Below, one piece after another: positions 49,196 to 52,405 of a DNA stretch of 60,954 nucleotides. Position 1 is the first letter of the stretch; each line of letters opens with the position of its first letter. The position numbers and the translations under genes are program-made. The notes beneath the pieces are model-generated. The model was not told the DNA's origin. It searched no databases and saw nothing but the letters and a program-made list of their open reading frames with translations. Location of the stretch: the NCBI RefSeq assembly GCF_030655615.1, contig NZ_JAURVJ010000208.1:1-60954 (forward strand). Direction: 5' to 3'. This stretch comes from Nocardioides sp. Lineage in GTDB: Bacteria; Actinomycetota; Actinomycetes; Propionibacteriales; Nocardioidaceae.

Positions 49196-49549
49196 TCACG
49201 CCTCGCGGCGCTCCTTGATCTTGGCGGCCTTGCCGCGCAGGTTGCGCAGGTAGTAGAGCTTGGCGCGACGCACGTCGCCGCGGGTCACGACCTCGATCTC
49301 CTCGAAGATCGGGCTGTTGAGCGGGAAGGTGCGCTCGACGCCGACACCGAACGAGACCTTGCGGACCGTGAAGGTGCGGCCGATGCCGCTGCCGTGGATG
49401 CGGATGACGACGCCCTGGAAGACCTGGACGCGGGAGCGGCTGCCCTCGACGACCTTGACGTGGACCTTGAGGGTGTCACCGGCGCGGAAGGCCGGGACGT
49501 CGTCGCGCTTCTGGGCGTTGCCGAGCTCGGCAATGACGTTGCTGGTCAT
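49196..49549 (-). CDS. rplS: 50S ribosomal protein L19
   Basis: This 117-residue protein is full-length L19, at the 30S-50S interface. Motifs: [29 protein letters not shown] and [15 protein letters not shown] and [31 protein letters not shown] before the ATG (minus strand) provides the SD. A 205-bp gap separates it from trmD and contains a long-range inverted repeat. Confidence 0.97.
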
Positions 49550-49754: not shown

Positions 49755-50948
49755 TCAGCGCTCGGTAATCCGCCGGGGCTTGGTGAGGACCACCGCCAGG
49801 GGCGGCGGGGTGATGTCGGGGCGGAGCCGGAACCCGGCCTTCTTGTACATCCGGATGTTGTCGACGCTGTGCTCGCCGGTGAAGAGGACGTACGACGTCG
49901 CCGCCGGCGGCGCGACCCGCTGGACGTGCTCGAGCAGGACCCGGCCCAGGCCGCGGCCCTGGAGGTCGGGGGCGACCATGATCCGGCCGATGTCCCAGGC
50001 CCAGCCGTGGTCGTCGTCGCCCTCGAGGCGGCCCCGTACGGCCCCGACGAGGCGCCCTCCGTCCGATGGCACGCGCACCACGTAGGTCGCCCACTGCGGC
50101 AGCCAGGCGAGCACGTCGTCGAGGGTCTCCTTAAGGGCGGGGATGCCCCGGACGTCGTCGTTGGCGATCGCCTCCTGCACCCAGCAGGCGCGCTGCAGGG
50201 TGAGCAGCTCGCCGGCATCGGCACGGACGGCGGGCACGATCGTCCACTCGGTGGCGAGGCTGCTGGCGGCGACGAGGTCCGGCCGCCGTTCCGCCGTACG
50301 ACGCTCGGCCCGGTCGTGCCGCCAGGCGGCGATCCGGCCGTGGTCGCCGGAGAGCAGCACCGGGGGGACGTCGAGGCCTCGCCAGGAGGCGGGCTTGGTG
50401 TAGACGGGATATTCGAGCAGGCCGTCCTCGTGGGACTCCTCGACCAGCGACGCGGCGTTGCCCATGAAGCCGGGCAGCAGCCGGACGACCGCCTCGGTGA
50501 CGGCCAGGGCCGCGACCTCTCCCCCGTTGAGGACGTAGTCGCCGAGGCTGACCTCGACGACCTCCACCCCGGGCCGCGTCGCGGCGTGGTCGAGGACCCG
50601 CTGGTCGATGCCCTCGTAGCGACCGCAGGCGAACACCAGGTGCTCGCGCGTCGCGAGCTCGCGGGCGAGGGCCTGCGTGAACGGCATGCCCGAGGGGGTC
50701 GGCACGACCAGGGTGCCGCCGTCAGCCAGCACCGCGTCGAGCGCGTCGCCCCAGGGCTCAGGCTTCATCACCATGCCGGCGCCACCGCCGTAGGGCGTGT
50801 CGTCGACGGTGCGGTGGCGGTCGCTGGTCCAGCTGCGCAGGTCGTGGACGGCGACGGTCAGCAGCCCGGACTCGACCGCCTTGCCGGGCAGCGAGAGCGA
50901 GAGCGGGGCGAACCAGTCGGGAAAGATCGTGAGGTAGTCGAGGCGCAC
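49755..50948 (-). CDS. trmD: tRNA (guanosine-37-N1)-methyltransferase fused to a GNAT domain
   Basis: The first about 225 of 397 residues are Trm[17 protein letters not shown], the knot loops GRYEGIDQR (109-117) and [11 protein letters not shown] (134-144), and the catalytic Asp region [16 protein letters not shown] (171-186). TrmD methylates N1 of G37 in tRNAs reading CNN/GNN-type codons and prevents +1 frameshifts. Residues about 235-397 are a GNAT acetyltransferase domain with the acetyl-CoA loop [17 protein letters not shown] and the terminal [13 protein letters not shown]. The frame is continuous without a stop or start between them. The GTG is 8 bp after rimM. Confidence 0.9.
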
Positions 50949-50956
50949 GTCGCGCC

Positions 50957-51496
50957 TCAGTCGGGCAGTGCGGTGACGAGGCCCGGGCGGTCGGCGACGA
51001 CGACACGCCCACCGGGGAGGTCGACCTCGGGCACCAGGGCGGAGACGAACGGCACGAGGGTGTCGCGGCCGTCGACGGAGCGGACGGCCAGCAGGTCCTG
51101 GGCGCCGTGGACCAGGCCGGTGACCTCGCCGATCAGGGTGCCGTCGACGTCGTGGACGGCGAGCCCGACGAGCTGGTGGTCGTAGTACTCGTCGGGGTCG
51201 TCGGGCACCTCGTCGGCGGACACCATGGCGTGCAGGACGACACCGCGCGCCGTCTCGGCCTCGTTGCGGTCGGCGATCTCGGCGAACGCGACCAGCAGCG
51301 TCGTCTGGTGCCACCGGCTGCGCTCGACGGTGAGGGTGCGGTGGGAGAACGCCGAGCCGCGGGGCGCCTCGACCCGCAGCGCCGCGCCGTCGGCGAAGCG
51401 CCGGTCGGGCTCGTCGCTGCGGACGTCGACGGTCACCTCGCCGCGGATGCCGTGCGGCTTGCCGACCCGGCCGACCACGACCTCGATCTCTTCCAC
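50957..51496 (-). CDS. rimM: Ribosome maturation factor RimM
   Basis: This 179-residue protein helps assemble the 30S head with S19. It has the N-terminal barrel [25 protein letters not shown] and the PRC barrel [30 protein letters not shown] to [15 protein letters not shown] lies 4 nt before the GTG at 51496; a GTG at 51511 adds five residues but lacks an SD. A strong terminator lies between it and khpA, so readthrough or an unseen promoter is needed. Confidence 0.93.
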
Positions 51497-51552
51497 GTCA
51501 CTCCTCGTCACTCACGGTCGTTCACAGCCCACACACGGTCGGTCCAAAACGG

Positions 51553-51596: not shown

Positions 51597-51845
51597 CTAG
51601 CGGCGAGGAGCGCGGTCCACGTCGACGAAGTCGATGCGGGCGCCCTCGCGGCCGGCCAGGGCCGACACGACGGTGCGGAACGCCGAAGCGGTCCGGCCAC
51701 CGCGGCCGATCACCTTGCCGAGGTCGTCGGGGTGCACACGCACCTCGAGGATCGAGCCCCGACGCAGCTGCTTGTCGCGGACGGACACGTCGTCGGGGTG
51801 GTCGACGACCCCCCGGACGAGGTGCTCGAGCGCGTCGGCGAGCAT
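51597..51845 (-). CDS. khpA: KH-domain RNA-binding protein KhpA
   Basis: This 82-residue protein is a single KH domain with the RNA-binding loop VIGRGGRTASAFR (GxxG). In Gram-positive bacteria KhpA works with KhpB in RNA binding and cell-size control, and it is nearly always encoded after rpsP. The ATG shares one base with the rpsP stop (TGATG). A terminator follows. Confidence 0.93.
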   Translation of the reverse strand: MLADALEHLVRGVVDHPDDVSVRDKQLRRGSILEVRVHPDDLGKVIGRGGRTASAFRTVVSALAGREGARIDFVDVDRAPRR

Positions 51846-52405
51846 CAGGCGCTCGGCTCGGCGTCGGTCTCGGCGGCCTCGGCCGTCTCGGCCGGCGTCT
51901 CGACGGCGGGCGCCTCAGCAGCGGGCGTCTCGGCGGGCGCCTCGGCAGCGGGGGTCTCCTCGGCGGGAGCCTCCTCGGCCTTGGGCTCTGCCTTGGGCTC
52001 GGCCTTCTTCTCGGCCTTCTTGGCGGGAGCCTTCTTCGTCACGGCCTCGCCGGTGGACTCGCCGCCGGCCTCCTTGAGCGCCTCGTTGAAGATGTCCTGC
52101 TTGGCGGTCTTGGCCGGCTTGGTCTTGAGGGTGCCCTCGGTGCCGGTGTAGCCCTTGAAGGTCTGCCAGTCACCGGTGATCTTGAGGATCTTGGCGACGG
52201 CCTCGGACGGCTGGGCGCCGACGCCGAGCCAGTACTGCGCGCGGTCGGAGGTGACCTTGATGTAGCTCGGGTCCTCCTTGGGGTGGTAGATCCCGATCTC
52301 CTCGAGGACCTTGCCGTCGCGCTTCTTGCGCGAGTCGACGACGACGATGCGGTATTGCGGCACCCGGACCTTGCCCAGGCGCTTCAAACGGATCTTGACG
52401 GCCAC
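51845..52405 (-). CDS. rpsP: 30S ribosomal protein S16 with long Ala/Glu/Lys tail
   Basis: Residues 1-about 80 are S16 ([57 protein letters not shown]). A further about 105 residues form a low-complexity tail, first basic ([20 protein letters not shown]) then acidic/Pro-rich ([18 protein letters not shown]). S16 is an assembly protein; the tail is far longer than in most bacteria and would project from the 30S surface. The GTG start has GAGGAG 11 nt upstream. Confidence 0.96.

Follow-up and report, generated by a model that had tools for sequence, protein, structure and literature searches.

The locus and its operon

The window, i.e. the whole stretch of Nocardioides sp. DNA that was analysed (60,954 nucleotides of contig NZ_JAURVJ010000208.1, assembly GCF_030655615.1), carries a trmD gene that runs on, in one reading frame, into a GNAT acetyltransferase domain. 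The initial annotation had described this frame at 49755..50948 and left its strand unstated; the frame was borne out and lies on the minus strand. Pfam assignments of the surrounding genes give the order rpsP-khpA-rimM-trmD-rplS, followed after rplS by a signal peptidase gene and rnhB, all on the strand of the fusion gene, the GTG start of which is found 8 bases behind the rimM stop codon. It is the sole TrmD-family match in a draft genome of 4.09 Mb that is 94.9% complete. The features discussed below are as follows.

49755..50948, minus strand: trmD-GNAT fusion gene, GTG start at 50948, stop codon at 49757-49755, 397 residues
50271..50948, minus strand: TrmD domain, residues 1-226, SPOUT tRNA m1G37 methyltransferase (NCBIfam NF000648, Pfam PF01746)
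50436..50438, minus strand: codon of Glu171, aligned to the catalytic Asp169 of E. coli (alignment with E. coli K-12 TrmD)
50244..50270, minus strand: linker, approximately residues 227-235, without conserved start signal (profile ends and start-signal control)
49776..50243, minus strand: GNAT acetyltransferase domain of 'type A', approximately residues 236-391 (Pfam PF00583 and model of residues 233-397)
49944..49961, minus strand: putative acetyl-CoA pyrophosphate loop Q330-G-R-G-L-G335, [QR]xxGx[GA] (sequence motif)
49845..49847, minus strand: Tyr368, candidate GNAT general acid (Tyr conservation in type A sequences)
50957..51511, minus strand: rimM, immediately upstream, in one operon with the fusion gene (Pfam domains RimM N and PRC_RimM)
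51597..51845, minus strand: KH-domain protein, KhpA-like (Pfam KH_KhpA-B)
51845..52405, minus strand: rpsP, encoding bS16 (Pfam Ribosomal_S16)
49196..49549, minus strand: rplS, encoding bL19, directly downstream (Pfam Ribosomal_L19)

A single chain with two domains

The proposal that this gene encodes one fused protein, with a complete TrmD and a GNAT of about 160 residues, was upheld by the domain search. The TrmD part is recognized by NCBIfam NF000648 over residues 1-226 (304.4 bits, cut-off 220), by TIGR00088 (254.6 bits for the 397-residue protein, cut-off 195) and by Pfam tRNA_m1G_MT (PF01746) over residues 22-223 (218.5 bits, cut-off 27.3), and Pfam Acetyltransf_1 (PF00583) matches residues 288-373 (47.3 bits, cut-off 20.7). 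When the GNAT part was used as query, TrmD was followed by GNAT in one frame in all 46 named loci retrieved, which come from Nocardioides, Pimelobacter and related metagenome bins and represent close relatives only, the query patterns having been derived from the window sequence. A frameshift or stop codon at the junction, raised in the initial annotation as the event that would undo the fusion, is present in none of these 46 relatives. Purifying selection on both halves is apparent in 39 pairs of relatives sharing no member, where the median dN/dS of the GNAT (0.158) is low and close to that of TrmD (0.117), indicating that the GNAT has been kept by selection.

The other event raised there, an internal start yielding two proteins, fared no better, since fused proteins show no excess of start signals at their junction. 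Of 137 distinct fused proteins, 22 have an ATG or GTG with a Shine-Dalgarno-like 4-mer there, compared to a mean of 23.6 (range 4-61) for 16 control windows inside TrmD. In the same 137 proteins, the gap between the end of the TrmD profile and the start of the GNAT profile has a median of 9 residues (range 1-23). GTG238 is the only in-frame ATG, GTG or TTG seen by eye at the junction in the window, and it falls within the first strand of the modelled GNAT, so that initiation at this codon would break the domain. Production of a separate GNAT from an internal start is thus unsupported, and an assembly or frameshift artefact is ruled out by the single frame in 46/46 relatives together with the dN/dS values. 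The protein of the window is a true single-chain fusion, not an assembly error.

Both domains are well known, but this architecture, TrmD followed by GNAT, is without a literature report that we could find in open-access publications, as judged by titles and the openings of abstracts. Nearly all bacteria have TrmD, normally as a single-domain enzyme (PMC11187310). A known exception is the double-knot fusion TrmD-Tm1570, PF01746-PF09936 (PMC11187310, PMC1829167), which resembles the protein of the window in having another enzyme domain behind TrmD. Its partner, however, is a second SPOUT methylase, whereas that of the window is an acetyltransferase. An identity with TrmD-Tm1570 was rejected, since PF09936 is absent and a Pfam scan of the 397 residues returns TrmD and GNAT families only. 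In the main text, the word 'acetyltransferase' does not occur in PMC1829167, and neither 'GNAT' nor 'acetyltransferase' in PMC11187310.

The TrmD half

With scores far above the family cut-offs, a gene order typical of the family (rpsP-khpA-rimM-trmD-rplS) and 63% identity to M. abscessus TrmD (3quv_B), the N-terminal half would, by family membership, be expected to make m1G37 in tRNA. Active-site positions in E. coli TrmD, a family that forms dimers, are Glu116, Arg154 and Asp169 (PMC1829167). The first two align with Glu112 and Arg156 of the window protein. The third does not correspond to what the initial annotation had stated, namely that the catalytic Asp is present: the aligned residue is Glu171, which, together with the GNAT domain, sets the window protein apart from E. 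coli TrmD. This is a common state in actinobacteria, in which 245 of 250 TrmD loci examined have Glu at this position and five have Asp; the latter belong to families f20 and f41, and the choice between Glu and Asp is made irrespective of GNAT fusion. M. abscessus TrmD carries Asp in the alignment. A search of the open-access literature for D169E in connection with TrmD found nothing.

Modelling of the full-length protein gave a pTM of 0.51, with pLDDT below 50 at residues 53-58, 166-168, 170-172 and 177-182, covering the TrmD knot loops, and with an undefined relative placement of the TrmD and GNAT domains. A fold search with this model returned TrmD matches only, with an rmsd of 8.3 over 225 columns, and the modelled domain arrangement is therefore not usable.

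The GNAT half

Taken in isolation, residues 233-397 are modelled as a canonical GNAT (mean pLDDT 95.2, pTM 0.88). The best structure matches are acetyltransferases with Z scores of 17-20, a tie that spans archaeal, polyamine, ribosomal and resistance GNATs, and by sequence the PDB offers only weak matches to type A (1y9k, the best, has 40 bits). The [QR]xxGx[GA] loop, which we take to be the acetyl-CoA pyrophosphate-binding motif of GNATs, is intact in 172 of the 174 TrmD-fused domains of type A (the 174 loci, in each of which a type A GNAT stands in the TrmD frame, include repeats). Tyr368, presumably a candidate for the general acid by analogy with the GNAT superfamily, is conserved in 92% of the 50 fused type A sequences and in 100% of the 18 unfused ones. 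The GNAT domain is very probably an active acetyltransferase.

Its identity with characterized enzymes was less forthcoming. RimI, the bS18-alanine N-acetyltransferase, shares the GNAT fold (2cnm, Z 18.2, level with many others), but the window protein reaches only 22.3 bits with TIGR01575, for which the cut-off is 86.4, and a separate RimI is encoded elsewhere in the genome (93.8 bits). The spermidine/spermine acetyltransferase PaiA was likewise rejected (NF053587, 11.7 bits, E 0.17, cut-off 250).

Fused type A domains tend to be basic, with a median net charge of +2 when joined to TrmD (n=51) versus -2 when unfused (n=23), and some end in basic runs such as KRRRRR, which would suit closeness to RNA. 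The contrast has a p of 2.9e-7 if the sequences are taken as independent, but there are only three independent contrasts on supported branches, with which the difference cannot reach significance. No difference in charge between fused and unfused proteins was seen in the second GNAT class, type P, described below (p 0.21).

Distribution of the fusion

A GNAT-bearing TrmD is present in most Nocardioides. In the order sample, 114 of the 120 genomes belonging to the genus, that of the window included, gave a GNAT profile match at E <= 1e-8, its adjacency to TrmD having been read in many of them rather than in each. In the six genus-mates without GNAT, TrmD ends near residue 230. Among 80 chosen genomes, the full-length fusion is found in 38/38 of family f3, while TrmD is without GNAT in 8/8 of family f4. 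Within the family of the window itself, genus g2 is unfused in 12/12 among the matches listed in the class sample (394 genomes), and genus g4 in 4/4 of the 80 chosen genomes and 1/1 of the class sample. Full-length matches to the fusion profile in the class sample and in that of a second order (198 genomes) come from the family of the window, from family f2 of its order and from family f36 of the second order, where 12 of 14 genomes are fused among the matches listed; family f55 gave one that is incomplete and lies at the end of a contig. Outside the class, no unbroken extension into GNAT was found among the matches listed in the phylum sample of 296 genomes.

Two loci depart from the common layouts. 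At L231:913-2097 (genome G053), TrmD has an insertion of approximately 40 residues and is followed by a shortened, weakly matching GNAT, which may be in decay. In a genus-mate (L124:3673-5135, genome G309), an unfused trmD and rplS are separated by a long gene whose DNA reads as a possible ammonium transporter.

GNAT relatives and origins of the fusion

Type A GNATs are not confined to TrmD. In the loci read, those without TrmD comprise 14 solo proteins, seven domains behind an NADPH-dependent FMN reductase and two behind a uroporphyrinogen-III methyltransferase (SUMT), the SUMT- or FMN-reductase-fused loci including L115 (G264), L116 (G154), L120-L123, L217 and L218. One FMN-reductase fusion is located on a Streptomyces plasmid and annotated as 'bifunctional NAD(P)H-dependent oxidoreductase/GNAT family N-acetyltransferase'. 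The GNAT subfamily is identical to that of the window, the N-terminal partner being different or missing, and since SUMT and FMN reductase also serve as partners, the subfamily is fusion-prone. A second type A GNAT gene is found between the fused trmD-GNAT and rplS at L142:1043-1801 (minus strand, genome G082, Nocardioides); in the tree it clusters with GNATs that are joined to TrmD at L021, L186 and L187.

Another GNAT class, which is PaiA-like (type P), has also been joined to TrmD, in 17 genomes from families f49 (9), f51 (7) and f56 (1), loci that were picked for long or extended frames, so that 17/17 is no frequency. The architecture is common to both fusions, with a GNAT behind TrmD, whereas the GNAT subfamily differs. 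In f49 the type P domain comes directly behind TrmD, as in the window, while in f51 and f56 it comes after an extra TrmD tail. Among NCBIfam models, type P comes closest to SpmdActasePaiA, with 46.8-54.8 bits in three proteins (cut-off 250), compared to 11.7 for the window protein, and the closest structures are 8osp (94 bits) and PaiA 1tiq (80 bits). Unfused relatives of type P were found at 29 loci.

Phylogenetic analysis relied on quick trees with SH-aLRT support only. The GNAT tree splits types A and P with full support, and there are unfused members on each side. From this separation, with unfused relatives for each class, it follows that TrmD and a GNAT have been joined on two occasions or more, the GNATs being different. 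A single origin of all type A fusions to TrmD was mildly rejected (AU p 0.038), and f3 type A domains group with solo GNATs (support 94). Since the AU result stems from one quick tree and from a group defined with a tree already in view, the claim made here is limited to two origins, those of A and P. In the TrmD tree, the unfused Nocardioides TrmDs of L125 and L230 are nested among fused ones (support 87), which suggests that at least two unfused cases in the genus are GNAT losses, and the fused TrmDs of f36 cluster with unfused ones of the same family (support 98).

Possible roles of the fused acetyltransferase

The tRNAs that receive m1G37 are those for Pro, Leu and Arg(CCG). The initial annotation had suggested two modifications of the same tRNA or ribosomal protein. 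In such a coupled scheme the GNAT would acetylate a substrate supplied by TrmD, which could be the anticodon arm or aminoacyl group of these tRNAs, or one of the ribosomal proteins encoded close by, for instance bS16 or bL19. Such a scenario would be in accord with at least two origins of the fusion with different GNATs, with the place of the gene in a bS16-KhpA-RimM-TrmD-bL19 operon and with the basic character of fused type A domains, including ends such as KRRRRR. It is nevertheless unlikely, because, in the loci read, type A domains often occur without TrmD (14 solo, seven on FMN reductase and two on SUMT), the characterized enzymes that come closest to type P have polyamines (PaiA) or canavanine (8osp) as substrates, and the protein is not RimI (22.3 vs 86.4 bits) in a genome that has its own (93.8 bits). 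The GNAT could instead be a passenger, originally encoded behind trmD and joined to it by loss of a stop codon, with a small-molecule function of its own and steady expression as the only gain. The attachment of type A GNATs to SUMT and FMN reductase as well, the second such gene right after the fused one in Nocardioides L142 and the repeated absence or loss of the domain would fit this scenario, which we likewise consider unlikely. It seems difficult to reconcile with the retention of the fusion in 114/120 genomes of the genus (by GNAT match) and 38/38 of family f3, and it would have to be by coincidence that TrmD acquired a GNAT a second time. Moreover, the next gene is rplS, not a GNAT, in some 30-odd unfused TrmD loci with a visible neighbour, and therefore no common GNAT neighbour was seen.

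A regulatory link to acetyl-CoA had also been suggested in the initial annotation. A GNAT that binds acetyl-CoA and tunes TrmD activity without acetyl transfer has in its favour that TrmD is central to decoding. It is very improbable, however, considering that the acetyl-CoA loop and Tyr368 are retained as in active GNATs and that the full-length model (pTM 0.51) predicts no conserved interface between the domains.

The explanation that we prefer, and to which we would give about an even chance, is a bifunctional protein in which an m1G37 methylase is tethered to an acetyltransferase acting independently of it. Its N-terminal half, the only TrmD detected in the cell, would methylate tRNA to m1G37, while the C-terminal half, some 9 residues behind the C-terminal domain of TrmD, would be an acetyl-CoA-dependent GNAT, and the two active sites would work independently of each other. 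TrmD is a dimer in its family, and each dimer would carry two GNAT heads next to its tRNA-binding face, which may bring the acetyltransferase to the translation machinery at a fixed 1:1 ratio. The acceptor would most likely be an amine, either small or part of a peptide, that is encountered close to tRNA or ribosomes, and not the base methylated by TrmD, because type A GNATs also work alone or on unrelated enzymes. The single frame, its conservation in the genus and in family f3, purifying selection on the GNAT, the intact acetyl-CoA loop and the confident GNAT model speak for this explanation. The independent recruitment of type P domains by TrmD strengthens the case for some link between TrmD and GNATs. 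On the other hand, that the GNAT is dispensable, as evidenced by its absence in 6/120 genus-mates, in 12/12 of genus g2 among the matches listed and in 8/8 of family f4, speaks against a bifunctional protein of this kind.

A bolder reading of the two unrelated recruitments, which we regard as distinctly unlikely, is that a hitherto undescribed acetylation step is tied to m1G37 tRNAs in actinobacteria and serves to control decoding, either for quality or under stress. N-acetylation would then take place on or near the tRNA bound by TrmD, or on its aminoacyl group, and decoding would be controlled at Pro, Leu and Arg codons. The recurrence of the architecture would mean either that many actinobacteria gain from acetyl transfer beside m1G37 methylation or that the end of TrmD takes up GNATs unusually easily. 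For annotation, a word of warning is in order, since under NCBIfam all 397 residues go by the name of TrmD alone.
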